From contig JAWZSP010000007.1 of the NCBI GenBank assembly GCA_034401135.1, forward strand, positions 620,001 through 684,000: a stretch of 64,000 bases of DNA, read 5' to 3'. Both the position numbers and the translations under genes were made by a program. The stretch is from Volutella citrinella. Lineage: Eukaryota; Ascomycota; Sordariomycetes; Hypocreales; Nectriaceae. Positions 11,064 through 53,232 of this stretch are shown here, piece after piece. The notes under the pieces were generated by a model. That model ran no database searches. It had not been told where the DNA came from and saw nothing but the letters and a program-made list of their open reading frames with translations. Position 1 is the first letter of the stretch. Every line of letters begins with the position of its first letter.

Positions 11064-11997
11064 GTTTAGTATTGGTGACGCCGAACTGGCTGAAGGAGGA
11101 TATTTGTCTGTCCGGAGTAGAGTCTGGTTGCCGAAGTAATATTAAGGAGGACAGCCGAGGATCATGGCGAACAGGCCACCTTACTCCATATGTATATTGC
11201 CGTTCAAAGTCAAATAAACCTTTCAATCAGATGGCATGGGTCATCTCTCGAACGCTCAAGGTTTTCATCTCAAATACACCCTCCGGGTTGTCGTTTAGTT
11301 GGCAGGTACTTTAGGCAGCTCAGAAACAATTTTTTTACAGAAACTGCAAGACCAACACCCGTCAACCTTCCGGGAGGTACTATGGAAATAAATCTCGGAA
11401 TCCAGTCTGAAAGTGGCACTTTCCTTACGGTAGCTGATGTGATCAAGAAACTCTGCCGAGTTTCCAAGTCTGAAGTTGCCCAGTTGCACCTCTTAGGCTC
11501 GAGAATTAGCATTGGGAACTCAACTCCAAGATCTCTGTCCCCTGTGTCCCAAGCCGCTTCCTATTTAGGGCTCCATGTGGCTTCCTTTTCTCACTTCCCC
11601 ACGATTCCATGTAGCATCACGGTCACATGCGGGCCTAAAATATCCACGCCACACTATCGACGCCGCAATGTCCGTTCGCAGAGACATCCGGGATGGAGTA
11701 GTTCATGCACTTTGCTGCAAGTCTCAGTGCACTGGCATTTATGATTAATTATACTATTGGAATCGTGCTTCGTTTTCCGGCTGTTGCCGCACATCGTGCA
11801 TCGTAATTACAGCGCAACCACGTCGGCGTTCAGGGTACATGTATGCATATTCAGGCCGCAAATACGGCGAATGGCGTCGATGTAAGCTCCACTTGGGCAA
11901 TAAATAGATATAAAAAGATGTTATCGACGGTAGAGTGTCCATCTATTGCCTAGAAATATCTATGGCACGGCCCAGCTGGATGTTCATCAGGCCCGTC

Positions 11998-12115
11998 AGA
12001 GATCCTAAGTAGTAAGGCCCGCCCTAACTCTGGATGAATCCACACCCCAGGTGCATCTTAGCCACACCCATCCTGCTGCCTAACCCTACATATACCGACA
12101 CTATTCTCATCATTG
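11998..12115 (+). repeat. Diverged direct repeat, copy A
   Basis: It shares the ordered blocks GATCCTAAG, CTGGATGAAT, GCTGCCTAACCC and CACTATTC with the copy at about 12631-12740. Between blocks the two copies drift by substitutions and small indels. By eye the relation is clear only in the blocks; a pairwise alignment would set the true ends. Confidence 0.55.
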
Positions 12116-12166
12116 ATCATAAAACGCTCACGGGTTCAGTCTTAGGGTAGGTAAAGGGTTAGTACC
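12094..12166 (+). pseudogene. Relic of the hydrolase gene's 3' end, inverted
   Basis: The plus strand reads TCATTGAT, then CACGGGTTCAGTCTTAGGGT, then GGTAAAGGGTTAG and TGACA. The coding strand of the hydrolase at 12909-12862 reads almost the same, covering its last residues (...TFTSSVLGWVKG, stop). Differences are mostly transitions, and one turns the Trp codon of the GWVKG end into TAG. The fragment is inverted relative to the intact gene and lies about 730 bp beyond its stop. It is a decayed partial duplicate and not functional. Confidence 0.65.
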
Positions 12167-12630
12167 TGACATAATACAACGTGACAGCTTTCCCATTCTG
12201 CCATTGATCAACGGTGGCTGCCCTTTCCACAGGTCACCCCGGGCATTCGCGTCGTTCTTCCCGGGCGTTCCGAGTGCTGTGAACCTGCGTGTCATCACCG
12301 GGCTCCTTCCTTCAATGTTCCCATCATGGATCGCGTTGTTACCCGGGCGGCCATTTTGTTTATGTGATGTTATCAGAATCCTTAGCCAACCCTCTCCCGA
12401 TCTTTAGCAATCCTGTTTAATAGTATCGAACGTTGAATACATTTAGTGAAATCATTCTGAGCCATTCTGGTAGGGCCCTATAATAATTACCAGGGGTGGG
12501 TGGTCGAGGGCCCCAGCAGAGCCCGTAGCTCACCGTGGTTGCTGGGTCTAGTAGCCTCCTCGAGGTGAAGCCAACACGAGCAATTAGGTGCTGGGTTGGT
12601 CAGCGTACTCAGCGTACATGTACTCATCAA

Positions 12631-12740
12631 TGATCCTAAGGCCCTGGCCCTGGATGAATTCTAATCCTAGTTGAATCCTAACGACACCAATTCCGCTGCC
12701 TAACCCCACAGACATCTATACACTATTCCCACCCTAAAGC
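12631..12740 (+). repeat. Diverged direct repeat, copy B
   Basis: Same ordered blocks as copy A (11998-12115). It runs directly into a sequence resembling the hydrolase 3' end (CCCACCCTAAAGCTGGAAC at about 12735), in the same orientation as the real gene, so the repeated unit seems to include hydrolase-derived DNA. Confidence 0.55.
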
Positions 12741-12873
12741 TGGAACTCGTGTTTGGATTCGTCTATCAGTTGCTCCTGTGACTAAATTAATAGTCTTATA
12801 CTCTGCGTCGTATCTAGGCCCGTAATAACCCTGACACCAGGAATTAGGTGCTGGCCTTGCGTCTTGTCAAGTC

Positions 12874-13818
12874 CTAACCCTTTACCCACCCCAAGACTGA
12901 ACTCGTGAATGTTTCACGGCCATCAATGAAGCATACATGCCCGGCATTCTTGATAACGACCAAGTTGACATTCGCATCCTTGCCCGCATCTCTAAACCCC
13001 TTTTCGATCTTGTCCCGCATATCAGACATCGTCTGGGGAAGATTTGCATCCTTCTCCCCAACCACCAACAGCGCATCGTCAACCGAGGCACCAATCTTTT
13101 CAAACCGGGGTCGAAGGTCAAAGGTCTCGCTGCGGAGAGCGTGACAGCAGGCCTCGAAGCCATCGAGGGTGGTCCCAACCATCTCGGCCCGCACGCGGCC
13201 GGCCTCTTGAGGGTTCTTCTCTATCCAATCCTTCCCGAACCATCGCTCCATGGTTCCCTGGGTAGTGGCTTCCATGTTGCCAGCTTCCCGCGCAGCAGCT
13301 ACGCGGGGGCCGAAGAGATCCTCTACACCGGCATTGATTGGCGAAGATGAGATGGTGTCACAGATGACGAGCTTGCTGACAATATTTGGGTACTTTGCGG
13401 TGAAAAAGACACCCTTGGCCGCACCCATGGAGACACCGATCCAGGCATGCAGGCTGTTAATGTCCAGTGTCTTGAGAAGATACCGCACATCATCGGCCAT
13501 TGAGTCGAAAGTCGTATCGAGCTCCTTTGGCACTGACGATGCCCCATGACCGGGCTGGTTGTACCTCAGCGTGCGGAAGCCGTCATTGTTGAGGGCCTTG
13601 ACGACGTGATCCCACACACCAAACGTCGTGCAGAGAGAATTGGAGAGGAGGACGACGGGCCCGTTCGCCGGAGCAGTATCCAAGGCATAAGACAGAGTGC
13701 CCGAGTTGGGGAGCTGTAGGGTACTGGCCATCCTGTAGGCGTATCGGGATCGATGAAGCAATGCTGTTCGGGGCCTGATGCTCCGCGTTACATGAATCAT
13801 GGGATTTCGAAGCAGCAT
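12874..13818 (-). CDS. Alpha/beta hydrolase, 3-oxoadipate enol-lactonase-like
   Basis: Intronless, 314 residues. Catalytic triad positions are visible: Ser130 in the nucleophile elbow GVSMG, Asp257 in VVGEKDANL and His294 in NAGHVCF. The NQPGHGASSVP segment and overall length fit the PcaD/enol-lactonase group, which hydrolyses 3-oxoadipate enol-lactone to 3-oxoadipate in the beta-ketoadipate pathway; other small esterases of this fold are possible. Residues 1-29 are basic with no acidic residue (about seven Arg) and precede a second Met that would be the usual family start, so this is either a mitochondrial presequence or an upstream alternative start. The gene is divergent from the Zn2Cys6 factor, with 245 bp between their ATGs and a shared regulatory element, which ties it to the cluster. 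Confidence 0.85.
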   Translation of the reverse strand: MLLRNPMIHVTRSIRPRTALLHRSRYAYRMASTLQLPNSGTLSYALDTAPANGPVVLLSNSLCTTFGVWDHVVKALNNDGFRTLRYNQPGHGASSVPKELDTTFDSMADDVRYLLKTLDINSLHAWIGVSMGAAKGVFFTAKYPNIVSKLVICDTISSSPINAGVEDLFGPRVAAAREAGNMEATTQGTMERWFGKDWIEKNPQEAGRVRAEMVGTTLDGFEACCHALRSETFDLRPRFEKIGASVDDALLVVGEKDANLPQTMSDMRDKIEKGFRDAGKDANVNLVVIKNAGHVCFIDGRETFTSSVLGWVKG

Positions 13819-14063
13819 AACGATAATTCGTGTGTTGGTTGCGGGCGTGGTTTTGATATCGTCAGCGGCTTAAGGTCGCTCCACCCCCGCATTCGGCCCT
13901 AGTCGGCATCGCCGGAAGCATGCATCCGATGCACCGGATCCCATCCGGGGTCGGCCCCATTTGCATCGTAAAGCTCCAACCATCCCTGGATGGAGACATC
14001 GATCCGACGATTCCTCTCAATCCACCCAGCTACTGATCCATTCTCTGTCAGGAGTTCACTTCG
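13819..14063. promoter_or_regulatory. Bidirectional promoter, hydrolase / Zn2Cys6 factor
   Basis: A 245-bp divergent intergenic region. It holds the cluster element at 13919-13931, which is part of a near-palindrome ATCCG-N6-CGGAT (13924-13939), giving a CCG-N6-CGG pair, plus further ATCCG copies at about 13952 and 14002. The density of CCG/CGG triplets suggests that the adjacent regulator also controls its own expression. Confidence 0.6.
13919..13931 (+). promoter_or_regulatory. Cluster element CATGCATCCGATG (copy 1)
   Basis: Identical over 13 bases to 18801-18813, and related to 22177-22186 and 24487-24499. It lies 101 bp upstream of the hydrolase ATG and 133 bp upstream of the regulator ATG. 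Proposed binding site of the cluster's Zn2Cys6 protein; that role is inferred. Confidence 0.6.
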
Positions 14064-16665
14064 ATGGATACCAACTCTGAGTCGTCGGCTGCTGCCAAGC
14101 GCCGCATGCGACGCATCCCGGAATACTCCCGAAAGCGGAACGCCCTGAGCTGTGACCGCTGCCGCAAGGTATGTTGTGGTGCCGTGTGATGCGGGTGGGC
14201 CGTCTTCCGCTGCATACTTGTCCGTCACTTAAGAGTACCCTGGCTGACTAGTCCAGCGCCGTTGTAAGTGTGTGCCGGCCGCGTCTGGCACTGGCTGCGT
14301 GACGTGTTTGGAGAACAATGTGGCTTGCTCGTACACTGCGCCGCGAAAGACGCGTTTCTATGGGAGCTTGGATGATTTGAGTGACAGGTTAGGCTCCTGC
14401 TCATCATCAAGGAGCCAAACAAGCTAATTAGTGGCTAGGTATCGTTGTCTCGAGGCCCTTGTCAAAGGGTCCTTTCCCAATGAAGCCCTCGACACTGTCC
14501 CGGACCTGGTGAAGCTGGGGCAAAAGATGGGTTTCGAGATGCCCAGCCTGTCAGATCCTAGCAGACCAACGATACAAGTTGAAAACCTGGTCCAACCGGC
14601 TGTCCAGTGCTCCTCTCCGCCCCCGACAATCAGCTCCTCGATTGACACACATGCGTCCGTGGATGGCAAGACGCATGGCGAGGAGCCTCAAGTGTCAATG
14701 GTACAGGATAATGCCGGCCACAGGCACTACATTGGGCCCTCAGGCACGCTTAACTTCTGGAACCAACTGCGACGGTTGGTCAACACCAATGATGGTTCTC
14801 ATGGGTCGTCTAGCAGGGACATGGAGGTTGCAACCAGCAAGTTCATGCAGGACGACACCACGCAGGCCCTGGAGGCGGACGAGGAAGACGAGGAGGCCAC
14901 TGAGCAGCCCGATTTCAGTGATCTGGCGACTCAGGATGGCCCGTCTCCTGGCTCCATAACGTCTGCGATTGCTCGGGACTTTACTCGACTCCCGGCTGCC
15001 GACATGGACGAGATCCTACAGCAGTTTCCAGCCCATGAGGTCCTGGAACAGCTGATAGACTCGTACTTCAAGAGGGTGCATGACGACTTCCCCTTGTTCC
15101 ACCGAGCAACCTTTGAGGACGAGTACGAGCTCTACATTGTCCAGGCTCGGCGCCGTCCCAAGCTCACCCAAGCTCGGCAGCGGCATCTCCCGGACTGGGG
15201 CTGGATTGGGTGTCTGCACATGATGATGGTGTTTGGCTCCATCGCTGATCCATCCATCTCCAACGTCGATCATGCCATGCTCAGACGGAGGGCCGTGTCT
15301 GTTGCTCGGGCCCTGCTCCCACAGTTCATCTCCAAGTGTTCGCTCACCAATATCCGCGTGCTGCTGCTGCTGGCTCTCTTTCTGCACAATAACAACGAGA
15401 GAAACGCCGCTTGGAACCTCACCGGGACGGCAACTCGCACCGCTTTTGCGCTTGGGCTTCACAGATCCGACATCGGCTCCTCCTTCCGCCCCTTGGAGAG
15501 GGAGGTTCGCAAATGGGTATTCTGCACCCTTTACTCGTTTGAGCAGTTCCTAGCCTCGAGCCTTGGGCGGCCAAGTGGTCTGCAAGATGTTGACGTTGAA
15601 GTCGTCGCCCCAAGGGAGGGGTTCGTGGATGTTGGCACCGGCACTGACGCCAAGCTTATCTCGTGGTCACTCAAACTTCAGGCAATCCTGGGCAAGACGC
15701 GGTTGCTTCATCTGAGTGCCGAGCGAGTCTCATCAGCTCCGACTGTTGAAGAGATCATGACCTCTTTGGACAACTGGAAGACGGACATCGCAAAAGCGCC
15801 TGGCTTCGATGTTCCGTGGATCAAGAGCTCGGGTCCCGAGTTGATATGTACAGACGACGCCAACGCTTTGGACATGGAGGAGTTGAAGGTATCGCTGGCA
15901 TGGAAGACTCGTGCTCAGCTTCGAGCTGTCCTGCTATTGCACGTACAGTTCAGCTACATCGCCATCGTGGCAACTCGACCAGCCCTCCTCCGCGACGTCG
16001 CCTTGGCACGAAAATCGTCAGCGGGACAGCCCAAGTCGCCGCTCTCTGCACATGGCGCCTTGTGTGTCAAGCACGCGTGCCAACTGAGCTACATCATGGT
16101 GCTGCTCGACTACTTCCAGGTCATAAACGGCCTCTCCGGCTTAGACATCTTTTACGGATATTGCGCTGCCATGATCTTGATCCTGCGACTGCTCCGGCTT
16201 CGGCCGGGTGAGACTGTCGAGGACGAGCACAACGACGAGGCAACTCTGCAGACCAGGACGCGCGAGCTGGTCACAAACGTACGAGACGTGATAAACCGCA
16301 CTAACAAATCAGGGTCGATGAAGCGGTTTGCTCAGGTCGTCGATACCTTCTCGGAGTGCGCCAACAACCCAAGCGAGCCGCCAAAGATCAGCGCTCTTCA
16401 GTATCAAGGACTGATTGGTAGCGTGAACATGGGTGGTGTCCCGTATGACCAGTTCAGCACGATGGAGCATGTCCAGTCAGACCCTACACAGGGTTTAACA
16501 GGATTTGGAACGCTGGAGAGTTTGTTGGATTTCATCCCCATGACTGGCTTTGGGGCAATCGAGGGATCCATGCCGCTGTTTATGCCAACCAACGAGATGG
16601 CGATGCCCGACTGGCCAGATATGGAGCCGTTGCTCGGGTACGGGGATCAGGGGAAGATTGGATAG
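14064..16665 (+). CDS. Zn2Cys6 transcription factor, likely cluster regulator
   Basis: Predicted 820-residue protein, join(14064..14168,14257..14387,14439..16665), junctions in phase. The binuclear zinc cluster is C30-x2-C33-x6-C40-x8-C49-x2-C52-x6-C59 and is split by intron 1 just after CDRCRK. The large third exon carries the fungal-specific middle homology region: YFKRVHDDFPLFHRATF at about 210-226, then NLTGTATRTAFALGLHRSD and the LGRPSGLQDVDVEVVAPRE loop. An acidic Asp/Glu-rich stretch precedes it (about 150-165). Family members bind CGG triplets and activate catabolic or secondary-metabolite genes, often in response to a pathway compound. Its place inside the cluster, with CGG/CCG elements in all the shared promoters, supports a pathway-specific role. 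Confidence 0.93.
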
Positions 16666-16863
16666 GGGGGATTCATCCTTTTACATGTAACATATGAGAG
16701 CATTGTATCATATTCATTTCAGGTCGGCGTTAAAGCGGAATCCAATGATATTAAGCTAAGCTTGGTTCCTGGCAACCTGCCAATAGCCATAACACATGGC
16801 CATTGCAGGCAGCCAACTCGATGGCACCAAAGCCACCAATGCTAACTACGTTGGGGAAACCCT

Positions 16864-18489
16864 TTAGGTGGTGTAACGGAAGTCGGGATGCTTCTCGCCC
16901 AGGGTATTGAGCTCGTCCTCGGGCAGATCCCGGAGATGGTCTCGCTTGCCCATGTCGCGCTGCTTGTTCTCCCAACGGCAACAAATCCACATGTTGATGG
17001 CAGCGATGATGCCGAGAACTTGGAAACCGATGCAGACAGAGATACCGGGCACGTAGAACGGGCCGTCCTTCTTGGGAAAGATGAGGGCCGAGATGATGCC
17101 ACCGACTTGGCCGCAGCTGACGGCAAAGGCCGTGACGGTTCCACGCTTGACATTGCCAACGACTTGGTTCACACTGAGGAAGTTAGTACGCGGATTTGTA
17201 TAAAGACGTCGAGAGAACTTACCACCAGGCGACAACGAGGGGCTGACAGATGTAGATACCAATGGCTGCAAAGTAAAGACCCATGTACCGTATGTTTCCA
17301 TTCAAGTGCAGCATCGTGATAATGCAGCCCATGATGCTGATGAGGTATCCAAGGATGCAGAACGGGCCGCGGCGCTTCATCTTGTCGGAGACCATACCGA
17401 CAAGCACGGACACGATGCCCGATGCGATGCGGATAGGAGCGGAGAGAAGGTTGGACTTGAGGCTTCCCCAGCCGAAGGTCTGGAGGATGGTCGGCGTGAA
17501 GACGCTGATGGAGTAGGCTGTGACGCAGACGGCCAGTAAGAACCTTCCAGTCCTTGAGAGAGTGAAGAGCGCCCTTGAGCGTCATCTTCTCGTGCTTGGT
17601 GTTGCTTGCCTGAGAATCGGCCTCCAGGGATCGAAGTAGCCATGCCTTCTCCTCCGGCTTGAGGAAGGTCGAGTCATGGGGGAAGGGCGGGATATAGAGG
17701 AAAGCAAGGACAGCAGCCGCGCAGGTCATGGCACCCTCGATGAAGAAGATCCACGACCAGCCCGAGTAGCCGCCAGTGCCGTCCAGGGAGCCCAGGCCGG
17801 CGCCCAGGAGGCCGGAGATTGTGCCGGCGATGTCGTTGGAGACCATGAACCAGGCCATGCGGGTCAGGAGCTGGTGTCGTCGGTACCACGAGCCGATGAG
17901 GAACAGGCAGCCGGGGAACATGCCGGCCTCGAAGACGCCGACGAACAGGCGTGCGGTCATGAGGCCGCCAAAGGACTTGCAGAAGCCTGCAAAGGTGACA
18001 GACACTGGATGGAGTTAGCCAAGACTCAGAGGAGGACTTGTACTGGTGCGTTGACTTACAGCCCCATCCCATTACCAGGGCCGCAATGTAGTAGCGTGGC
18101 TGGACGCGGGTGAGAATCATGTTGGAGGGGATCTCGAGCAGGATGTAGGGGATGTAGAAGACTGCATGAATAAGTTAGACCAAGCAACTAAAGCCATCGG
18201 TAGAAGACTCACTCATGACGATAAGATTATACTGATTGCCAGTCATCTTAAGGTCCTTCTCCAGATTCCACAGTCGGGCATTGCCAATGTTGACGCGGTC
18301 CAGAAAGGTCAAGGTGTAGAGCAGGATGAGAAGCGGCAAGATGCGCCAATCAATCTTGCGGACGATCCTCGCGGCCTCGACGGGGTCCGACTCCAGTTCC
18401 TGGAGCGAGCCCCCCTCGATCTTCTCGAGGTGGTCGAAGCCTTCCTTCTCCTTCCGAATGCTCGGAGAGTGAGGTTGCTGCTCGGCCAT
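16864..18489 (-). CDS. MFS permease, anion:cation symporter (Tna1/Dal5-like) type, apparent frameshift
   Basis: Exons complement(16864..17173, 17223..18004, 18060..18161, 18213..18489), giving a roughly 490-residue 12-span carrier. Family marks: IDWRILPLLILLYTLTFLDRVNIGNAR (TM1), YILLEIPSNMIL (TM2), ARLFVGVFEAGMFPGCLFLIGSWY (TM4 region) and a central loop ending LKDWKVL. The family imports organic anions such as nicotinate, allantoate and aromatic carboxylates, so uptake of the pathway substrate is plausible. At about 17537-17543 the frame of the first half (DWKVL) must shift by one base to reach the second half (LAVCVTAYSISVF). One extra base in the CTTACT context explains it, and no intron fits. 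Either the gene is broken or the sequence has an error. It is divergent from the monooxygenase. Confidence 0.82.
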
Positions 18490-18762
18490 TGTGAGGAAGG
18501 TCTTCTTTGTGTTTGAGATTGATGTTGCTTGAGGGTTTAGGTGCTTGAGGGCGAAGCTTCATGACAGAATGTCGAGGAGGGCCACCATGTTTTGTAAACG
18601 GAGGCGACTTGCCGCCAAGCGCGTGGGGTTGTCTGGGGTTGTCCGGGGTTTGGCAGATGTGAAGGGGGATGGATCCGGGGTAGAGGTGTGATTGTGGAGA
18701 AGCTGAAGGTGCTAGCGATGCTAGTGGGAGGAGCCATGGATCCGAACGAGGTCACAGGGTTG

Positions 18763-18777
18763 CGGATGTGGCATCCG
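18763..18777. promoter_or_regulatory. CGG-N9-CCG palindrome
   Basis: Reads CGGATGTGGCATCCG: two six-base arms around TGG. Inverted CGG triplets at a fixed spacing are the classical target of dimeric Zn2Cys6 regulators. It sits 24 bp from a copy of the cluster element and shares its CATCCG half. Confidence 0.55.
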
Positions 18778-18800
18778 ACGGAAGTGGTCTCCTTCGGCTT

Positions 18801-18813
18801 CATGCATCCGATG
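18801..18813 (+). promoter_or_regulatory. Cluster element CATGCATCCGATG (copy 2)
   Basis: Exact 13-base match to 13919-13931. It lies 312 bp from the permease ATG and 219 bp from the monooxygenase ATG. Confidence 0.6.
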
Positions 18814-19031
18814 GGATGTTGGTCAACGTCTGGGGAAGAGTAGTGTCGACAACCAGAGACTAGAGAGACTCTAGCATGTTCGTCATTCCGTCAGTGCTCG
18901 TTGATTAGTCTATTTATTGTCGCTGTGAGAACTCTTGGGTTGTCTTTGTACCCTCACCACCAACCAACATTGAACACTCAGCCAAGAATCAAATCATCTC
19001 CAGTGTCTGACTCTGCACCACCATCAACATC

Positions 19032-20400
19032 ATGCCTACCGCCACTCGATCTCTCAATGTGCTCATTGTTGGAGCTGGCCTTGGCGGTCTCGCTTCCGGC
19101 CTCGCCCTCCAGACCGATGGCCACAAGGTCACCATCATCGACGCCGCCCCTGAGTTTGCTGAGGTATGCTGCCGCCCCCCTGTCTATTCTTTTAGCCACG
19201 GCTCTCTTCTCCACACCGCCATCTTACTGACGCTTGCTCCCCCAGGCTGGTGCTGGAATCCGAGTGCCTCCCAACTCGAGCCGCCTCCTCATTCGCTGGG
19301 GCGTCGACATGGAGAACATGAAGAAGTCGACTTCCAACAAGTACCACTTCATCCGCTGGAAGGACGGCGATACTATCGTCAAGGTTCCCTTTGACAACAT
19401 TGTAGAGACGCACGGTGCTCCCTACTACCTCGTCCACCGTGCGGACCTGCACGCTGGGCTCCTTGACGCCGCTCGTCGGGCTGGTGTCGTGATCCACAAC
19501 AAGAAGCGTGTCATGGAGTATGACTTTGACGCACCCAGCGCCACAACCCAGGACGGAGAAGTCTTCAAGGCCGACCTGGTCATTGGCGCAGACGGCATCA
19601 AGTCCATCGCCCGTCCCCTGCTCACCGGCAAGCCCGATGTGCCCCGGGACACGGGCGATGTTGCCTACCGAATCCTCATCCCTGGCGAGAAGCTGCTGGC
19701 GGACCCCGAGCTGGCCTCCCTCATTACCGATCCTTGCACTACGTCCTGGTGCGGTCCCGAGGCCCACTTGGTTGGCTACCCGATCCGCAACGGCGAGATG
19801 TACAACATTGTCGTGTGCGCCACGTCCCACAACGAGACCACGGACGAGGTCTGGGTCATCAAGGGCGACAACCGCGAGCTGTGCGAGCGCTTCGGCAAGT
19901 GGGAGTCGCGCGTGCAGAAGCTCTGCGCCCTGACTGGCGACTTCATGAAGTGGCGGCTGTGTGATCTTCCCATCCTCTCCCGCTGGGTCCATCCCTCGGG
20001 CAAGGTCGCCCTCCTCGGAGACTCGTGCCACCCCATGCTGCCCTACCTGGCCCAGGGCGCCGCTCAGGCCTTCGAGGATGCCGCTACTCTTCGCCAGTGT
20101 CTTGCTCTTGACACCGACCTGCACACAGCACTGAACAAGTACGAGAGCATCCGCATGCCCCGGGCGAGCCTGGTGCAGGAGAAGACCAGGGAGCACCAGT
20201 ATATCCTCCACGTTGACGACGGCCAGGAGCAGGCTGCTCGCGACGAGCAAATGCAGCTGAATGCCGAGGAGAATCCCGTCTTCTGGGGCTACGATGATCG
20301 CAGGAAGTGGTTGTTCAGCCACGACGCCGAGGTCTTGGACAAGGAGGGCGCAAACTGGTTTGTGTCGGCGAAGCAGGCGGGCAGCGTGACAGCCCATTGA
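19032..20400 (+). CDS. FAD-dependent aromatic monooxygenase, salicylate hydroxylase-like
   Basis: Predicted 428 residues, join(19032..19163,19246..20400). The dinucleotide-binding GxGxxG is GAGLGG at 14-19, the DG motif GADGIKS is near 159-164, and the GD motif is LLGDSCHPMLPYLAQGA near 301-316, the last being characteristic of the salicylate-hydroxylase branch of group A flavin hydroxylases. Such enzymes use NAD(P)H and O2 to hydroxylate, often with loss of carboxyl, turning salicylate into catechol; 4-hydroxybenzoate- or other benzoate-type substrates cannot be excluded from sequence. No signal peptide or peroxisomal tail, so probably cytosolic. In the cluster it would act on the acid made by the aldehyde dehydrogenase. 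Confidence 0.9.
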
Positions 20401-20752
20401 TAGACTAGAGCGTTATTCCTTAATATTTGAGTGCTAGTTATGTTATAAATCCTATTATCTTATCTTGAACGACTCCCCTGTCTTCACTGCTCCATATCAG
20501 CCTCTGGATTTCAGTATCAAAATCATACCTCGGCCGGCAAATCAACGTGTTGAACAATTCGACTTATGTCTGAAGTCCAGTTGCCAACATGAGATACTTG
20601 CTAGTCTTGAGTGAAATGCCTTCCATATGATTGGTTCGGGATAGACAAAGTGCGTCCTTTCCTACGTAGCAACGATAGAAACTGGAGCAAGCACGCTGAT
20701 TCAGAATGCAATATCGAAATTCTGATCAAAGCTTGTGTTACAGTACAGCTCA
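20401..20752. other. Convergent 3' intergenic region
   Basis: A 352-bp spacer between the stops of the monooxygenase and the 2-hydroxyacid oxidase. AT-rich, with no coding signal; it probably holds both terminators. Confidence 0.55.
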
Positions 20753-22060
20753 CTAAAGCCTCGCCTCTACTCTCATCAACGCATGAGGGCCCAGCTCATC
20801 CAAGCCAAGGCAGCCAGCCAGCGCCATACAGGCCCTAAACTCTTCTTCCAGGATACTCAATGCATTCTTTAGTCCTCGTTCGCCATCATACGCAATCGCC
20901 CATAGGGCGGGACGTCCAATCCACACCATGTTGGCGCCCAGACACATTGCCTTGAAGATGTCCGATCCTCTACGGACACCGCCGTCAAAGTGCTGCAGAA
21001 CTCAGCTTCAGAGTCTCTAATAGGTCAAGATGAAGACTTACCACAGGGACACGCCCTCTCACTGTGCTGCAAATGTCCTCGAGGACTCGCAGCGTCGGCG
21101 GCGAGCCATCGAGCTGTCGACCGCCGTGGTTGGACACGAAAATGGCATCGGCGCCATTCTCGATGGCCAGTTCTGCATCCTCGGGAGTCATTATACCCTT
21201 GACCCAGATTGGAAGCTCTGTGATGCCTTTGAGGTATCTCACTGCTTCCCATGTCAGGGAAGGATCTGGCGCTGTTAGCTACGCTTCTCTCTTCTATCAC
21301 ACGAAGCCACGTACCAATCTTATTGCTCGCGTCAGCAGAAACAGTCTTGGACTTGCCCTGAATCTCGTCTGTCCGGTGCTCTGATCCGGTCTTGACACCC
21401 ATCGCCGCGTCAAAGTTGGCCATCCGCAGGTGAGGCGGAACCCTGAAGCCGTTGCGGATTTCCGAAAGACGCCTCCCAAAGAATGGGGTATCAACGGTCA
21501 GCACGATTGCTTTGTACCCGGCCTCTGTATGCATTAGCAGGGGATGAATTGGGTAGAATCAGTTATGGCATACCCTCAGCCCGCCGAATCAGTGCCTGGC
21601 TTGTTGCCCTGTTCTCGAAGAGATACATCTGGAGAACACACTCGCTCTGGCCCTCAAGTCCCGCGGCCTTTCTAGAGGCATCTGCAGCTTCCTTGACATC
21701 TTCCAGCGAAGTCGTCGAGAATGTGCTCAGTCCCATGGGCGTGCCAAATGCACCGCTGCCTCGAGCCGTGGCCACCTCGCCATCTGGATGTGCCATTCTT
21801 TGCATCGCCGCAGGGGCAATACAGCAGGGAAACGGGATCTCATTCCCATTGGGAAACACTTTGGTCTTGGTGTTGGCTCCAGCCGCATTGCATAAGACTC
21901 GTGGCTTGATGTACCACTTCTGGTACTCACTACGGTTGGCTCGCAGCGTTATCCCGTCCATCGAGCCCCCGTTGAAATAGTCTCGGACCATCTTGGGGAG
22001 ATGCTTTGCGGCATGCTCCTCGAGATCATCGATGGAATGGACTAATGGTTTCGCTTCCAT
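20753..22060 (-). CDS. FMN-dependent (S)-2-hydroxyacid oxidase/dehydrogenase, mandelate-oxidase candidate
   Basis: Predicted 386 residues, complement(join(20753..20992,21042..21265,21315..21524,21574..22060)), all phases checked. A single FMN_dh barrel with no cytochrome b5 domain, so it resembles glycolate/lactate/mandelate oxidases and not flavocytochrome b2. Visible active-site residues: Tyr28, Tyr146, Arg180/181 in TVDTPFFGRR, Lys255 in WVKGIMTPEDA, and His279 and Arg282 in SNHGGRQLD; the phosphate-binding end is FDGGVRRGSD...GRP. Phe114 sits where spinach glycolate oxidase has Trp108, a substrate-size determinant. The protein ends ...VEARL, and -ARL is a variant PTS1, so peroxisomal location with H2O2 release to catalase is plausible. 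The start is the first ATG; frames further upstream begin only at GTG. Confidence 0.92.
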
Positions 22061-22446
22061 GTTGGCGGTTCGATAGCAAGTCACAATATTGCGATGAATC
22101 CAGAATCACCAGCGGATGGGGTCTCGAATATGGCTTGAGCTTTGATATAATCTGGCTGAAACTGGTAAGCCTGGTGCGGATGCATGTTTCCGAAGAGGTG
22201 TCGTTGCACGCTAACTACCAGAGTCTCCCACATGATTCTAGTAGCTCTACACCGGTCCCCACAGTAGAATGTTACCTAAAGTATTATCAAATGTCGGCTA
22301 GATCAGCCTAGCCTAGATGTCTGCTGTGGGTAACTAATCTCGTGTATCAACACCCAAGCCCCTGGCGAGTTCACAACCTATTGAACATTATTCCTCCAGC
22401 ACGACGCATTGAGAAGTCGAAAGACACATGTACATTACTCTATGTT
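22061..22446. promoter_or_regulatory. Promoter of the 2-hydroxyacid oxidase gene
   Basis: A 386-bp region between the oxidase start and the decarboxylase stop, both on the minus strand. It contains CGGATG at 22113-22118 and a CGGATGCATG copy of the cluster element at 22177-22186. No coding signal. Confidence 0.55.
22177..22186 (-). promoter_or_regulatory. Cluster element, 10-base match (copy 3)
   Basis: The plus strand reads CGGATGCATG, the reverse complement of the first ten bases of CATGCATCCGATG. It lies 117 bp upstream of the oxidase ATG. Confidence 0.5.
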
Positions 22447-24264
22447 CTAAATAGATTTAATCTTAACCTCCAGAAGAGCACACCTCTTCTCTTCCCGCAC
22501 CACCCTGATGGCCTCCTTAAGAATCTCATCCACCTCGTCGCCCTGGCTAATAATCCGCCACCATGCCCCAGCCGCTCCCTCCGCAATCTTTCCAAACGAG
22601 GGCGACGGAGTGAGGGCTACTTGCAAGTCGTCGCTCAGCCCGGCTTGGCCGCTCAGCTCTCCGTGTAGTCGGAGACATGCGTTCTTCGGAGACGCCCAGC
22701 CGCCATTGTTCCAGATGATGGTCAGGAAGGGCGTCTTGTACTTGTTTGCCATCCAATAGGCGCACGAGGGTACGCCAAAGAGCCATGTGCCGTCTCCCGT
22801 GAAGGCTATGAGCAAGTCATCTCGCCCCTGGGACTGGAGAGCCATGTGAGCTCCCACCGCAGCGCCAGAATACCACCCCAGAGCGCCGCCGCCGCTACCG
22901 ATCAAAGACAAGGGTGTTTCGTGGTGGAGGTGGTCCGCCACGTTTCCGAGGTTGGTTGTGGACTCATTGAGGCCGACTACTGATATGCCAGAACATGCTT
23001 CTCGCAGACGGGCCATTACATATGGGACAGTGACGCTGCCATCCTGGGGAAGTGCCTCGGCGTTCTGAAGCCTCGTCTGCCTCTCCCTGAAACGATCCTG
23101 CAGTCTCGACTTCCTCGCCTCGATCTTGCCGGCAACATCACTCAGGCCACGACGCTGAACGAAGTCGTGGAGCTGTTCCAGCGCAAGACTCGAGTCTGCC
23201 CGCCACCTCTTCTCGCAGGGCAGCGACCAAAGGGTGGTAGCATCTTTCAGCGGATCACTGTCAATGTGGAAAACCCTGGCTGCATTGTTTGGTCGTGACT
23301 GGGCCGGGATCCACGGCACGTCGGCGTCAATCACCAGCACAACGTCCGCCTCGGCCAGCGCTGGGAGCTGGCCGCCACCGTTCCACTGGTGGCCCTGGTG
23401 CAAAAACGATGTGGTGGGGAAGTTGTTGTAAATGGGCGCGTTCTCGTGAACTGGGATAGCCAGCAACTCTGCCAGGGCCTTGAGTGCCTGGAATCCGGCG
23501 GCGGAGCGGCCACAGTAGCTCGTCACGATGAGGGGGTTCTCTGCCTCGGTCAGGGCCTTGGCTAGGTGCTCGAGGCCTCTCTGAGGCATCTCTACAGGCT
23601 CCAAAGCCGAGTTCTTGTCGACAGCTTGAGAAGCCTTGGGGTTGTTTGTAGGGTGTGCCGTTTCAGCCTCGAGGGTCTCGCGGCTGGCAATCAGATATGT
23701 CGGTCCTTTCGGCTCTGTTGTGGCGAATTGAAGAGCTCTAAGTGTGATTTGGACAGCATTATGAGGAGACCTGATTTCATGCTCGTATTTCATGTACTGT
23801 CGCACAATGGCGCGCTGGTCAGGGACGTCTTGGATCCAGTGGATATATCTTGGAGTTGAAGTCAGCAACGTCCAGCTCATCCCTTGCTAGAGGAGGTGGA
23901 CTCACTCATTCCTGCTGCCTACCATCTCGCCCTCCATTGTGACGGGGACAGTGCCAGCAAGGATTATAACGGGAATCCGGCCTTTGCTGACATTGTGAAC
24001 AGCGCCAGCCAGTCCCTGAGTTCCGCATTCAACGTGGACAAGAACTCCAGCAGGCTTCCCCGTCACCTGGGCAAACCCTGACGCTGCCGAGAGCGCATTC
24101 ATCTCATTCGGAGACGTAAAGATGTTGATGTTGTGGCTCTTGCTTGCAAAAGCAGCCAGGAATGCGGGATGGTCGGAGCCCAGGTTCACAAAGAGATGGG
24201 TGATGCCCGCTGCCTCGAGGGCATGCAGAATCGCGGCCGCGCCGCTGATGCGCTGTACAGACAT
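22447..24264 (-). CDS. ThDP-dependent 2-oxoacid decarboxylase-like enzyme (benzoylformate decarboxylase candidate)
   Basis: Predicted 586 residues, complement(join(22447..23848,23906..24264)). Three-domain ThDP enzyme: the Pyr domain has the activating Glu54 in SPNEMNALSAASG, and the PP domain has the ThDP/Mg motif GDGTW (471) to NN (500-501). Compared with bacterial benzoylformate decarboxylase from memory of its motifs, Ser30 in LGSDHPAFL matches Ser26 and His77 in VHVECGTQG matches His70, but the region of His281 reads DADVPWIPAQ with no His. It therefore belongs to the wider acetolactate synthase/decarboxylase family and the reaction is inferred: non-oxidative decarboxylation of an aryl 2-oxoacid to an aldehyde. 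It lies between the hydroxyacid oxidase and the aldehyde dehydrogenase, exactly where such a step is needed. Confidence 0.88.
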
Positions 24265-24428
24265 GGCTGCTAGACCGCTTCAATGAATAACAATGAGCCG
24301 GATACTTGGGATTCAGCAAATACCTGGAGGCACGGGAAGGTAAAGCTTCATCTCAAGACGCCCAGGGTCTTTATGCCGTCTACTTGTGCCGGAACCCATC
24401 CCCCCAGCGGACCCCGCAATGGTTCATC

Positions 24429-24437
24429 CATCCGATG
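24429..24437 (+). promoter_or_regulatory. Cluster element core CATCCGATG
   Basis: Nine-base core identical to the right-hand part of the element at 13919 and 18801. Second site in the decarboxylase/dehydrogenase promoter. Confidence 0.5.
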
Positions 24438-24486
24438 CGTGGGGGCGCGGGGACGCGGGGATGGAGGCGGGGAAGATGGAATCATC

Positions 24487-24499
24487 CATCGGGTGCATG
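24487..24499 (-). promoter_or_regulatory. Cluster element, one mismatch (copy 4)
   Basis: The plus strand reads CATCGGGTGCATG; the reverse complement of the consensus is CATCGGATGCATG. It is 223 bp from the decarboxylase ATG and 169 bp from the dehydrogenase ATG. Confidence 0.5.
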
Positions 24500-24667
24500 C
24501 TTCCTCCACGCCAACGGCTATGTGAATCCGGGGATCCACAGTCTCAGAGTGCCGGGTGTAGCCTCGGAGATAATGGTAGACTGCAACGCCGGGCGGCATC
24601 AGATAAACCTGATGCGTGGTCCTGTTGTATTGTGCCTGGCCCACACGGGATCCAAGACAGTGCAGCC

Positions 24668-26214
24668 ATGTCGTCCCTTTCAGATCCCCAGCTCCTCTTC
24701 ATCAATGGCGAGTACAAGCCCTCCTCCACGAGAGGCACATTCCCCGTCGTCAACCCCATGACGGGGACGCCCATCTACGAAAGCGCAGCCGCCGGCGTTG
24801 AGGATTACGCCCAGGCCATTGACCACGCCCACGCCGGCTTCAAGACGTGGTCGGAGACGCCTCCGTCGACGAGGCGGCTCATTCTTCTCAGGGCTGCGGA
24901 CACCCTCGAGACATATCTTGGCAAGGACGCGCCCGAGATTCTGTCCTCGGAGGTGTCCGCCGTCAAGAGCTGGGTGCAGCTCAACATCAAGGCGACGGCC
25001 ACCATCTTGCGCGACACGGCTGGGCTGGCTACGCACATCAAGGGCGAGATCATCCCAGCTGACCGCCCAGGGACCATGATTCTCGTCGAGAGGTGCCCCG
25101 TCGGCGTCGTGTTTGCCATTAGCCCCTGGAACGCACCGGTAGGTCACCACCTTTGGCTCTTTATACGACCAAGCCCCCTGTTAACGCAGTCAACGTGGAG
25201 GTCAACCTCACAGCCCGCGCAATCGCATGCCCCTTGATCTGCGGCAACACCGTGGTCCTCAAGCCATCTGAGTTCAGCGTAAAGTCCCAGCACCTCGTCG
25301 TGAGAGCCCTTGCCGAGGCTGGACTGCCGCCGGGCTGCCTCAACTTCCTGCCCAGCGCCCCCGGCGACGCCCCAGCCGTCACCGAGTATGCGGTCAAGCA
25401 TCCCAAGGTCCGCCGGGTCAACTTCACGGGCAGTGACCGAGTCGGCCGCATCATCGCCGGCTGGGCCGCAACGTGCTTGAAGCAGTGCGTGCTTGAGCTC
25501 GGCGGCAAGGCCCCGGTGCTGGTGCTAGACGACGCCAACATCGCCGACGCGGTCGAGGCCGTGGTCTTTGGCGCCCTAGCTAACAGCGGCCAGATCTGCA
25601 TGTCGACAGAGCGCGTCATTGTGAGCTCCTCCATCGCAGCCGACTTCAAGGCCGCATTACTCCAGCGTGCCTCAGCTGTCCGCTACGGCAACCACGAGGA
25701 GGACGCTTCCGTGTCCATGTCCGGCCTCTACTCGGCATCCTCGTGCAGCCGCGTGGCAGAACTCGTCAAAACGGCCGTCTCGGAGGGCGCCCAGCTGCTG
25801 GCAGGCGACTGCACGCCCAAGGGCCCCAACAAGACGATACTCGCGCCACACATTCTCGACCAAGTGACCCCGTCAATGTCCGTCTTCCAACGCGAGAGCT
25901 TCGGGCCCATCATCTGCCTGACCGAGGCAGCTTCAGACGACGAGGCCGTTGAGCTTGCCAACAACAGCGAGTTCTCGCTGTGTGCCAGCGTCTTCTCCCA
26001 GGACGTGATGCGGGCTCTTCGTGTGGCCAAGCAAGTGCGCGCCGGGAGCTGTCACGTCAACGGCCCTACAGTCTACATCGAGGCTCCCCTACCGAATGGC
26101 GGCACCGGTGGAAGCAGCGGTTACGGTCGTTTCGGTGGCATGGCGGGCGTAGAAGAGTTCACAGAGCGCAAGATTGTGAGTCTGGCACAGTCGGGCATGA
26201 AGTATATCTTTTGA
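24668..26214 (+). CDS. Aldehyde dehydrogenase, salicylaldehyde/benzaldehyde dehydrogenase-like
   Basis: Predicted 494 residues, join(24668..25138,25201..26214). The 62-bp intron has GTAGGT and an acceptor GTGGAG that keeps phase and rebuilds PWNAPVNLTARAIA; a nearer CAG at 25190 would break the frame. NAD(P)-binding and catalytic marks: FAISPWNAP, LKPSE near 177-181, FTGSDRVG, Glu256 in LELGGKAP and Cys290 in GQICMSTERV. The GQICMSTER form is typical of the salicylaldehyde/vanillin/benzaldehyde dehydrogenase branch, which oxidises aromatic aldehydes to acids. It is divergent from the decarboxylase that would supply the aldehyde and is the right-hand end of the cluster. Confidence 0.92.
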
Positions 26215-26469: not shown

Positions 26470-29400
26470 TCACGGAGTAGGGGGCAGCGGCGGCTCGCTC
26501 AGCGCTCTGCTCATCTCCCGCGGCTTCGTAGCCTCGCCCCCTTGCTTCATGCTGATCCGCCGCTGCGATGCCTCGCGTTGTTCCACCTCTGCATTGACTG
26601 CTGCGCCAACTGCGCGAGCCAGATCCAGCATAAGGTTCCTGCCAGGTCCCTTCCCAGCGTATGCTGCATAATCCACTGCCACGTCGCGCCCGTGTTTCCC
26701 GCAGAGCTCGGCAACGGGAGCCTGGCCCATTGTACCCGCCTCCTCGCCGACCTCGACCTCGGCCAACCGCCGCAAACCACGGACCCCGCGAGCCTTTTCC
26801 CTGCATCTAGAGCACTCCAGTACGGCCTCGATGGTCCGGAAGAGCTGCAGGTTGATCTGGCCCGGGGCGGCAACCCCACGCCCTCGCCAACCGCGCTGGA
26901 CGTGGGCCTTTAGCTTCAGTTCGTGTGCGAGCATGTTAGCAAAGCGCCAATTCCCTGTCTTGAGAGCAGCTTCTAAGGCTGTTCCGCAAAGGATGAGCAT
27001 GTTTTCTGGGTGCAGCTTGAGACATTCCTTCATGATGCGCTTGCAGTCTTCGTCACTCCAGTCATGCTCCATGGCATCGGCGATGCCCGGCAGCAGCTTC
27101 GGGTCGTACCCGCGCCCGTAGCCACCGGCATCAAACCACACTTTCAAATACTTGTTGACGGAAGTCGAGTCGCCGTGCCGGAAGGCGCTGATGAGACATG
27201 CTCTTGTCATGTCGGCTGCCATTTCAGGGTGCCTGCTCGATGAAACATGGCGGTTATTCGTGTAGAAGCTGTGAACGAGTCGGCAGCTGCGGTTGTCAAA
27301 CGACCAGCTGTGCTCGGCGGCGAGGTCCACGATCGATTTTCCCGTAATTGTCCGCATATTGTTGAATCCGTCGAGTCCCATCTTCGTGCTGGCACAGAGA
27401 ATTTCCACTGTGATGTTGAGGTTCTTGACGGCAACAACTGTGGCGAAGACGGCCAGTCTCTGCCGCTCGTCAACATCGTTCTCGTAGCAAGGTCTGACGG
27501 GCTGTACATGTGCTCGGAAGCCATGCTCCAACACGGCCGCGATATCCTCGTGAATCCCACGTCGACGAACCCGCTCAGGGCACGATGCCGCGGTGCACTT
27601 TCCATCAGCGTACTGGACGTCTCGGAAAAGGGGGATGCCTCCAGCTGCCAGCCGCGTAAGAGTATCTATCAACGTGATGTGGTCCATCTGATGGGGCAAG
27701 AGGGTATAGCACTTTCTCGCGCAGTCCACATGCCGGCTTTGCACCATGAAGAAGCTGTACGCCCCGCTCAGGGCCAACAACTGTTTCTGAAAATCCGCCG
27801 AGGAGAGTTCCGTCTGCATACGGGTAAGCTGGTGAGATAACAAGTCCATCACTTTGCATCCCAGTGATGTGACCTGGTCGAAGCCTGCCCAAATCAGAGC
27901 AAATATCAACGACGCCACTAGGGAGGCGTCTTCCAGCAAGGGCCGAATAGATGAGTGCCTTAGGCCCTTATCGGTACTGAAGTGATCGCTAATGTGCAAG
28001 GGAATCGTGGTTCCCCCTGGCACAAGACCGCCTTGGGGCTGCTCGGCGAGATAGACGACCTTTCGACGCCAGTTTTCATCCATCCAGGGCATTTCGAAGA
28101 GAAAGGGCTCCCACAATACCCGACGTCGAAGAATCTGGTCCATGAGTATCTGCCCAAAAACCTGCCAAGCCGGTGAATCGGCAAGCTCCCCAGCGGCGTT
28201 TCGACGGGGAAAGCCCAGAGTTGTTGTGTGTTGGAACCAGTAGCGCGCAGCATATTCCACAAGCGGGTATCTGGCGAGCCGTTGAGTGGTGGGAGCAATC
28301 CTGCGACCAAACCTGATTAGTGGTATATCAGTGCCGGTCTGGTGAGTCGGCTGGCGCGAGATATCAGTGGCCAAAACAGGAGGCGGAATCGGAGTTGCAG
28401 AATGACCGGCCGAGGGACTGACACTAAGTTCGGGGGTGTTTGCCAATTTACTCAGAAAGTTTCCAAAGAAACTGGTGCGTCTCCTAGCCGCTTTCCTCTC
28501 CGTTCGCGCATCAATTGTTGGCTGGCTTGGCGACGGTTGCATCCCTTCCGGCGGCCTCTCTGCCTTGGATCCCAAGCTGATCATCGAATTCGTCTTCTTA
28601 TGACGCGAGTCTTTCAGTTTCATCCCCTCGGGAGTTTCTTTCTCTGGCTGGAGCCCGAATTCGGCTTTGGTGACATCAATATTCAAGAGTGCGAGACATA
28701 TCTCACCCACCACATTATCGACGTCCCAGCGCGTCAGCTCAAGCGTCCTCGGTGAATTCGGTGCGCTGCGCCTAAAAAGGTGCTCTCGACATGTCCTGTG
28801 GCTGAAGTGGACTGTCATATCTGCATCCTCAACATGTAAAAGTCCCTGGGAGTCGCTGATAAGGTTTTCTAGCTGATCTGGCCCAAATGCCGATACAGCA
28901 GGCGTCGAGGTCTCGAGATTTACCGACAGAGCTTGATGCAGCTGGGCGACAGTAAGAGGCTCGCTCACTCCAGCACATATTACTATGCACCCTCGCATAA
29001 TGGCTTTGAAATCTGGCTGCTGCTCCAGTCGACCAATAGCTCGGTCAAGGGCGTCCTTGATATCAAGCGGTATGATCCGTAAAGCAGTTCGAATCTCTTC
29101 ATCCGATTTACCGTAGCAAACATTTTCCATGGCGAGTTGTGCCCATAAGAACCTATCTCGAATTAGCATTCTATTCCACACTTGAGGTTGACCAGGCTTG
29201 AGTCCGTTTACTTACTTCCTTTCGCCCCTGAGAGATATGAAATCAGACACTTGGGTGGCCAGCGAATCGTCTTGGGCCGCAAAATCACCTGAAAACCGCT
29301 TGCTCCTCAAGGTTTCTTCAGCATATTTGCTAATGTCGATTCTCGTCGCCTCGGATGACTCAGTCGTAATGCGATGAACAGACAGGCCATATGCACTCTC

Positions 29401-52200: not shown

Positions 52201-53232
52201 GGGCAGTCCGGGCTGGATAGCTCTGCGCTTCGTGGGGCGTGGCTGCGAGTCATCTGCAATATCCATCAAGAACTCGGCGTCCCATTCGTCGTCCTGTTCC
52301 TCGATGTGTCGCTTCTTTGACTGAAGGGCCTCCTGTTCGGCAATCTGGCGCTTCTTAAACTCGTCCTCGATCATGTCGATATGGGCGCCCCAGTCCTCAC
52401 AAGCCAATTCGATGTCTCGCAGGGTAAAGCCACCGACAGTTTCGTTGTCAGACTCTTGATCCGCCTCGAATTGCGTGGTATTTTGGGACTCCCCTGTTTG
52501 CTCTTCTGTGCAAATAACCAGGCCCCTTGAGTCACCACTAGCCTTTGGCTTGCCGGGGATTCTAAAAAGCTTCTCTTGGTCGGGGGCGAGGTCAAGGCTG
52601 AGCTTGCTCGTGACAAGGTGCTTAGGTTTTTTGATGGGCTTCTTCTCCTTCCATGTGGCCATCTTCGGAGGCAGCAGCTCGCTCCATGTCAGAACGTGGC
52701 CCTTCTTGAAGGCAGGCCAGGCTGCTTTGAGGAGATCTTCAACCGTCTCGGCCGGCGCGGGGATGTCGGGGTCTTGGTTCGCGCCGGAAAGGTGAGGCTC
52801 AGGGTCGAAGTTGATGCCGGCAAAGCTGAGGCTGGCATCCAGGGGCTGGGTGTCGTCGCCAGCGTCGGCGTCGCGAACATGGGGAGCTGGGGAGGAGGGC
52901 GCGAGCGTGGGGTCCATCGGCGACGATGGCCCTTCGCCAAACAGGTCGTCAGCATCGTTACTAGTTCCACCATCATCCGTCAGGCTGGGCATCTCCATGG
53001 AGGTGCCAGCACCCGGTTCTTCTTCGGGGAGGTCGTCATCGCTGATGTCTTCGAAATCTTCGGCATCGTCCGCCTTGCCCGACTGGTCGAACGGCGTGTC
53101 GTCGAGCTTGAGGCCCCCGTTTCCACCCTCCTGGCTCTGTTCCAGGAGGCGCGAGATCTCGCGCTCGTCGGCGGCATCTTGGGCCTTCCAAGCCTGCTCG
53201 TCAAAAGACGAGAACTCGTTGTCGTCGGCCAT
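49268..53232 (-). CDS. taf1: TFIID subunit TAF1 with zinc knuckle and coiled-coil tail; one junction uncertain
   Basis: Largest TFIID subunit, a scaffold for promoter recognition. The main exon (53232 to about 50027) codes for some 1068 residues: an acidic N-terminus (TAND-like region), then the central TAF1 domain (DUF3591) with SVEHSMPAIKLSWPYYKVKLG, FGMGNRLINYYRRK and GQQFPSVEVPGPHS. As in other fungi there are no bromodomains. A second exon (about 49992-49795) carries KKELERLEKNKARRQ and the knuckle CANCGQVGH; a canonical, in-phase 70-bp intron (49794-49725) leads to a last exon (49724-49268) coding for a long Arg/Glu/Ala coiled coil. The first junction is irregular: the in-phase choice is a 34-bp GTAG...ATAG intron, while the more normal GTACGT donor at 50042 is in phase only with a GG acceptor. 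With that 34-bp intron the protein has 1286 residues. Confidence 0.8.

Follow-up and report, generated by a model that had tools for sequence, protein, structure and literature searches.

A candidate gene cluster for the catabolism of mandelate-type 2-hydroxyacids in the fungus Volutella citrinella

A 64,000-nucleotide stretch of the Volutella citrinella genome (contig JAWZSP010000007.1, positions 620,001 to 684,000; hereafter the window) carries seven adjacent genes, designated A to G. On sequence evidence, we consider it likely that they form a catabolic cluster for ring-hydroxylated mandelate-type (S)-2-hydroxyacids, most likely para-hydroxylated ones such as 4-hydroxymandelate or vanillylmandelate. 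The bacterial mandelate pathway, encoded by the mdl genes of Pseudomonas putida, consists of flavin mononucleotide (FMN)-dependent oxidation of the 2-hydroxyacid, thiamine diphosphate (ThDP)-dependent decarboxylation, and aldehyde oxidation. An earlier note on this DNA had assigned an oxidase, a ThDP decarboxylase, and an aldehyde dehydrogenase to these upper steps. The corresponding genes E, F, and G fit these steps; they are adjacent, and the E-F and F-G linkages are also found in relatives. The seven gene models were rebuilt from splice sites and are as follows (window coordinates):

12874..13818, minus strand: gene A, alpha/beta hydrolase resembling PcaD, with a score under the PcaD cut-off; 314 amino acids, start at 13818 or 13731
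14064..16665, plus strand: gene B, Zn2Cys6 and Fungal_trans regulator; exons 14064-14168, 14257-14387, 14439-16665; 820 amino acids
about 16864..18489, minus strand: gene C, major facilitator superfamily (MFS) permease, reading frame lost in the assembly near 17515-17552
19032..20400, plus strand: gene D, group A flavin adenine dinucleotide (FAD) hydroxylase; exons 19032-19163, 19246-20400; 428 amino acids
20753..22060, minus strand: gene E, FMN (S)-2-hydroxyacid oxidase; exons 22060-21574, 21524-21315, 21265-21042, 20992-20753; 386 amino acids
22447..24264, minus strand: gene F, ThDP-dependent enzyme of family PRK08327, probable aryl-2-oxoacid decarboxylase; exons 24264-23906, 23848-22447; 586 amino acids
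24668..26213, plus strand: gene G, aromatic-type aldehyde dehydrogenase; exons 24668-25138, 25201-26213; 494 amino acids

All seven genes that the earlier note had placed at 12874..26214 were located, and a Pfam family was confirmed for each: Abhydrolase_1 for A, Fungal_trans and Zn_clus for B (Zn_clus 20.6 bits against a cut-off of 21, with a complete six-cysteine motif), MFS_1 for C (scan of the first 281 residues), FAD_binding_3 for D, FMN_dh for E, three TPP_enzyme domains for F, and Aldedh for G. The three introns of E are 49 nucleotides each. Six genes (A, B, D, E, F, and G) are open throughout as spliced models; C is the exception.

In the proposed route, permease C would import the acid, and oxidase E would convert the (S)-2-hydroxyacid to an arylglyoxylate and H2O2. 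F would decarboxylate the arylglyoxylate to a benzaldehyde, G would oxidize the benzaldehyde to a benzoate, and D would remove the carboxyl group and hydroxylate C1 to yield a hydroquinone. The ring would be opened by dioxygenases encoded elsewhere. The substrate of hydrolase A may be an ester or lactone formed further along, and regulator B may turn the genes on, perhaps via a CATGCATCCGATG-like site. Thus worded, the route keeps the mandelate-type upper steps of the earlier note and replaces its salicylate branch with a para-hydroxybenzoate branch, which we prefer. No mandelate racemase is present among the seven cluster genes; the rest of the genome was not searched for one.

The product of gene F matched PRK08327 (NCBIfam NF006203, ThDP-requiring protein) with 527.3 bits against a cut-off of 456. 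In the fold search with F, the closest solved structures among the 50 matches listed were benzoylformate decarboxylases. By alignment, the F equivalents of the benzoylformate decarboxylase active-site residues Ser26, Glu47, and His70 are S30, E54, and H77. They were invariant in 34 of 34 fungal-type and 50 of 50 bacterial-type sequences, both groups including metagenome sequences. The closest relatives listed for F were from Fusarium nematophilum (87%), F. decemcellulare (85%), and F. zealandicum (84%). F is probably a decarboxylase of arylglyoxylates.

Gene E encodes an FMN alpha-hydroxyacid oxidase (PF01070, 411.5 bits; cut-off, 24.9). Twenty-two orthologues were compared, rows P0140 and P0144-P0149 being omitted. 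The catalytic Tyr, Tyr, Lys, His, and Arg residues were each present in at least 21 of the 22, and where one was missing the alignment had a gap. The pocket was altered in all 22, with F or Y at the position of glycolate-oxidase Trp108 and F at that of Leu161. Among solved structures, G matched salicylaldehyde dehydrogenase 6qhn best (415 bits) and vanillin dehydrogenase 9ihb nearly as well (402 bits). Hydrolase A had been called enol-lactonase-like; the resemblance stands, and its score of 147 bits on the 3-oxoadipate enol-lactonase PcaD model TIGR02427 is below the curated cut-off of 255.85.

Relatives of F, E, and D were searched for, and the best 120 of each were listed with one representative per 90% cluster. 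For the 29 fungal F entries that carry an NCBI name, linkage was judged by contigs of equal length, by locus tags, and by misfused gene models. E was found on a same-length contig in 15 of the 29 entries and D in nine; F, E, and D were all present in seven, namely Thelonectria olida, Hypoxylon trugodes, H. crocopeplum, H. texense, Hypomontagnella, Thozetella, and Lineolata. In one further entry (P0068, Parascedosporium), F and E had been merged into one gene model by the gene finder. In the remaining 13, E was not seen on a same-length contig or fused, which does not show that E is lacking. Some of the shared contigs are megabase-sized, so that length alone is no proof of closeness; closeness is supported by short shared contigs of 11.6 and 27.9 kb and by adjoining locus tags. 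The tags of Sporothrix bragantina differ by eleven. The first 100 or so residues of the Hypoxylon cercidicola F entry (P0065) correspond to G read in antisense (57% identity, E value 1e-27); therefore, G lies divergently beside F in that species, as in the window. The linkage spans Sordariomycetes, Exophiala (Eurotiomycetes), and Lineolata (Dothideomycetes). F is thus linked in relatives to E, D, and G, and for these four genes the lack of conservation that the earlier note had named as a refuting outcome was not observed.

PRK08327 also occurs in bacteria. A scan of bacteria with the F sequence itself found no relative; an alignment of bacterial relatives then found 243 stretches, of which the best 80 were kept as loci that are not independent of each other. 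A longest-frame rule recovered the ThDP family in 61 of the 80 loci, an antisense frame apparently having been taken in the others, and partner genes were counted by tblastn on all 80. A G-like dehydrogenase was found in the flanks of 35 loci, within 400 nucleotides in 14. An E-like oxidase was found in six, each of which also had the dehydrogenase. Isatin hydrolase was found in eight (representative, 253 bits to 4j0n); in seven of these (L091, L094, L109, and L112-L115), it lay 48-131 nucleotides from the ThDP match and a dehydrogenase was present as well. Ketopantoate-reductase-like genes were found in 11 loci, an A-like hydrolase in one, and a D-like hydroxylase in none. In Comamonas (plasmid pBHB), the ThDP gene and a dehydrogenase gene overlap, with genes for a reductive dehalogenase and for protocatechuate 4,5-dioxygenase nearby. 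A Novosphingobium plasmid has the ThDP gene close to catechol-branch genes, and on an Aneurinibacillus plasmid its sole neighbor is an MFS transporter. From the aldehyde dehydrogenases, FMN oxidases, and isatin hydrolases in these neighborhoods, we infer that PRK08327 enzymes act on arylglyoxylates, which they probably decarboxylate. The isatin hydrolase pairs resemble the cluster in placing the ThDP family of F beside a source of arylglyoxylate and differ from it in that isatin opening, instead of a hydroxyacid oxidase, would supply the arylglyoxylate. Nothing was found on isatin in open-licence papers. The mandelate-type reading of the cluster appears strengthened by the conserved linkage and by this bacterial context.

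The earlier note had described D as salicylate-hydroxylase-like, which is true of database labels only. By sequence and fold, D is nearest to the decarboxylating 4-hydroxybenzoate/vanillate 1-hydroxylases of the MNX1 type. Its nearest solved relatives by sequence, GsMNX1 (8r2t), vanillate 1-hydroxylase (8x38), and VibMO1 (8gsm), were the first, third, and fourth of the 50 matches listed in the fold search. Against salicylate 1-monooxygenase TIGR03219, D scored 155.2 bits (cut-off, 446.35). The route from 2-hydroxymandelate through 2-hydroxyphenylglyoxylate, salicylaldehyde, and salicylate to catechol, with D as salicylate 1-hydroxylase, would agree with 6qhn as the top solved match of G (vanillin dehydrogenase being near), with the label 'salicylate hydroxylase' on many D relatives, and with the enol-lactonase resemblance of A; given where D falls, we regard this route as unlikely and reject the salicylate/catechol branch as first choice. 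The ring-hydroxylation branch should, as judged from these similarities, be moved from salicylate to para-hydroxybenzoates. The best NCBIfam match of D was 3-hydroxybenzoate 6-monooxygenase (268 bits; cut-off, 459), and isatin hydrolase adjoins some bacterial relatives of F. Other aryl series would suit these two observations, either meta-hydroxylated mandelates with D as 3-hydroxybenzoate 6-hydroxylase or 2-amino (isatinate-type) acids, anthranilate then being the substrate of D; the MNX1-type placement of D makes para-hydroxylated substrates the preferred choice, and these series seem rather unlikely. We know of no characterized member of the clade of D itself. Among the D relatives, ARAD1D27984 (P0347) is 60% identical to D and 54% identical to an Aspergillus niger relative (P0343). 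In the accessible text of PMC9204233, ARAD1D27984 is reported to be 51.8% identical to A. niger PhyA, a protocatechuate 1-hydroxylase, and in that of PMC8262893, PhyA homologues are reported in A. nidulans, N. crassa, and F. graminearum. These three species are not among the D relatives listed (one representative per cluster). The ties of ARAD1D27984 to D and to A. niger PhyA were the ground for considering D as a PhyA.

The promoters of the cluster share a candidate motif, with the following copies:

13919..13931, plus strand: candidate regulatory site, exact CATGCATCCGATG, divergent A|B promoter
18801..18813, plus strand: candidate regulatory site, exact CATGCATCCGATG, divergent C|D promoter
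22174..22186, minus strand: weak copy of the candidate site, three mismatches, upstream of E
24425..24437, plus strand: candidate regulatory site, one mismatch, divergent F|G promoter
24487..24499, minus strand: second candidate regulatory site, one mismatch, F|G promoter

The motif is thus common to six genes, and the seventh, E, has the weak copy. The palindrome CATCSGATG occurs three times in the 64-kb window, once each in the A|B, C|D, and F|G promoters. At up to two mismatches, CATGCATCCGATG occurs seven times in the window, five of them in these promoters, compared with 2.3 expected, and none of 100 shuffles scored as high. The exact 13-mer occurs five times in the whole genome, twice in the cluster. 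When sets of four intervals were drawn at random outside the cluster, 19 of 5000 trials equalled the number of exclusive shared 9-mers and 105 of 5000 that of shared 9-mers.

Several observations weigh against a mandelate-type cluster. The F protein scored 111.5 bits on the benzoylformate decarboxylase equivalog PRK07092 (cut-off, 493). Its stretch aligned to the His281 region, VPWIPAQSRP, has an invariant Trp and no His, the exact position being uncertain; 4q9d, a named benzoylformate decarboxylase, seems likewise to be without the equivalent. The best matches of E were human HAOX1 (327 bits), L-lactate oxidases (307-319 bits), and glycolate oxidase (306 bits), and 4-hydroxymandelate oxidase was less close (251 bits). 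The orthologue of D is 36-41% identical to its nearest characterized relatives. D relatives occur in Penicillium and Aspergillus, genera outside the names listed for F and E; hence, D need not be tied to a mandelate-type route. Four Verticillium entries have F without a listed E or D, in Phialemonium D lies on a different contig from F, and none of the four partner genes was found at 42 of the 80 bacterial loci. The motif was chosen after looking at the promoters and is therefore a candidate regulatory site only; the shorter CATCCGATGC with one mismatch was not significantly enriched (11 versus 6.5 expected; 7 of 100 shuffles as high). In gene C, two frames meet near 17515-17552 with no space for an intron. 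The nearest paralogue of C (L122, on contig C9) stays in frame there with 54 nucleotides versus 37 in C, i.e., 17 more, and C is either a broken gene or an assembly error. Together with the labels acetolactate synthase and pyruvate decarboxylase on relatives of F, the HAOX1/glycolate-oxidase-like character of E would suit a set of unrelated activities (glycolate or lactate oxidation, acetolactate-type chemistry, and general aldehyde detoxification) whose genes are neighbors for other reasons. Yet linkage across three fungal classes, the E-F-G combination at six of the 80 bacterial loci, the shared promoter motif, and the changed pocket positions in all E orthologues compared argue against such a set, and we hold it to be very unlikely. 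The mandelate-type reading is retained.

Two more F-like genes, with best long pieces 39-40% identical, were found in the genome searched (45.1 Mb in 26 contigs, the window being part of contig C7), and both have a D-like neighbor within about 6 kb. At C6:453630-460000 (L032, 629-6996), the F-like gene lies between a D-like hydroxylase gene, whose product has VibMO1 as its best solved match, and a flavoprotein gene, beyond which lies a Fungal_trans regulator. The flavoprotein has an FAD-oxidase_C domain and is of the GlcD/D-lactate-dehydrogenase type, in place of the FMN oxidase; its GlcD-like exon scored 110.5 against a cut-off of 567.9. Our guess is that the C6 cluster handles the opposite mirror form of the acid. 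A match to intradiol dioxygenase (C6:438331) is about 15 kb distant. At C2:3785600-3799000 (L035, L036), an F-like gene is accompanied by a D-like hydroxylase gene, a gene with a PhyH domain, and what looks by eye like a Zn2Cys6 regulator gene; the F-like exon scored 405.9 on PRK08327, below the cut-off of 456. Both scores come from single exons. CATGCATCCGATG at up to two mismatches was absent from L031-L033 (C6) and L035, and L034 and L036 (C2) had a single two-mismatch copy each; therefore, the parallel clusters seem not to share the motif. A wider reading, which we consider less likely than not, is a fungal family of arylglyoxylate modules built on PRK08327-like decarboxylases and shared with bacteria. 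In V. citrinella, (S)-hydroxyacids would enter via the FMN oxidase and (R)-hydroxyacids via the C6 flavoprotein, each module ending in a decarboxylating 1-hydroxylase so that both mirror forms would give hydroquinones. PRK08327 would then serve bacteria and fungi alike as the general decarboxylase of aryl-2-oxoacids in isatin, hydroxymandelate, and related pathways.

Ring-cleavage genes had been expected to lie elsewhere, in agreement with 10 intradiol dioxygenase matches at about eight places and nine HgmA-type dioxygenase matches at about eight places in the rest of the genome; ten of the larger flanking open frames (single exons only) contained no further aromatic-catabolism domain. These dioxygenases are enough for a hydroquinone, catechol, or hydroxyquinol route and do not decide among the three. 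At C9:883824-888003 (L124), an HgmA-type dioxygenase lies about 3 kb from a D-like hydroxylase fragment and could form a vanillate-type ring-cleavage pair with it; at C5:3718953-3722420 (L125), another lies about 1.5 kb from an aldehyde dehydrogenase gene. Elsewhere in the window, two similar stretches at 11980-12870, left of the cluster, form by eye a diverged direct repeat, perhaps a mutated repeat element. A 913-codon open frame without a Pfam match lies to the right (26470-29211, minus strand), and a 1078-codon frame at 50023-53259 has a DUF3591 domain (607 bits).

With the cluster, named genes become available for testing a fungal mandelate-type route, and the ThDP family, which occurs in bacteria and fungi without a name of its own, acquires a candidate function. 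New candidate oxidases, decarboxylases, and hydroxylases for arylglyoxylates are also provided. According to the accessible text of PMC11288888, arylglyoxylates are linked to lignin breakdown, and in leaf-cutter ant gardens a benzoylformate decarboxylase of fungal origin was mapped along with 4-hydroxyphenylglyoxylate. As the earlier note had supposed, no fungal cluster of such composition was found in the open-licence literature.

Compared with known systems, the cluster shares with the P. putida mdl pathway the order of chemistry and the grouping of an FMN oxidase or dehydrogenase, a ThDP decarboxylase, and an aldehyde dehydrogenase. It differs in that F belongs to PRK08327, below the benzoylformate decarboxylase equivalog cut-off, E is HAOX1-like, and a ring hydroxylase, a regulator, and a permease are added. 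Mandelate breakdown in fungi is known biochemically, as had been claimed: in A. niger, mandelate is converted through benzoylformate and benzaldehyde to benzoate, as proposed for the cluster, and then through 4-hydroxybenzoate to protocatechuate (Jamaluddin 1970, cited in PMC12388069), whereas D suggests a decarboxylating 1-hydroxylation. The accessible text of PMC12388069 names no genes for the first steps. For D, the nearest solved relatives (GsMNX1, vanillate 1-hydroxylase, and VibMO1) are 36-41% identical to its orthologue. The vdhA-vhyA-mhdA-omeA route of A. niger for vanillin and vanillate, as given in the accessible text of PMC8336404, combines vanillate 1-hydroxylation with homogentisate-dioxygenase-type ring cleavage. 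It resembles the proposed route in its aldehyde dehydrogenase, decarboxylating FAD hydroxylase, ring-cleavage dioxygenase, and esterase; unlike the cluster, it is fed by vanillin and has no oxidase or ThDP step, and by gene identifiers only mhdA and omeA adjoin.

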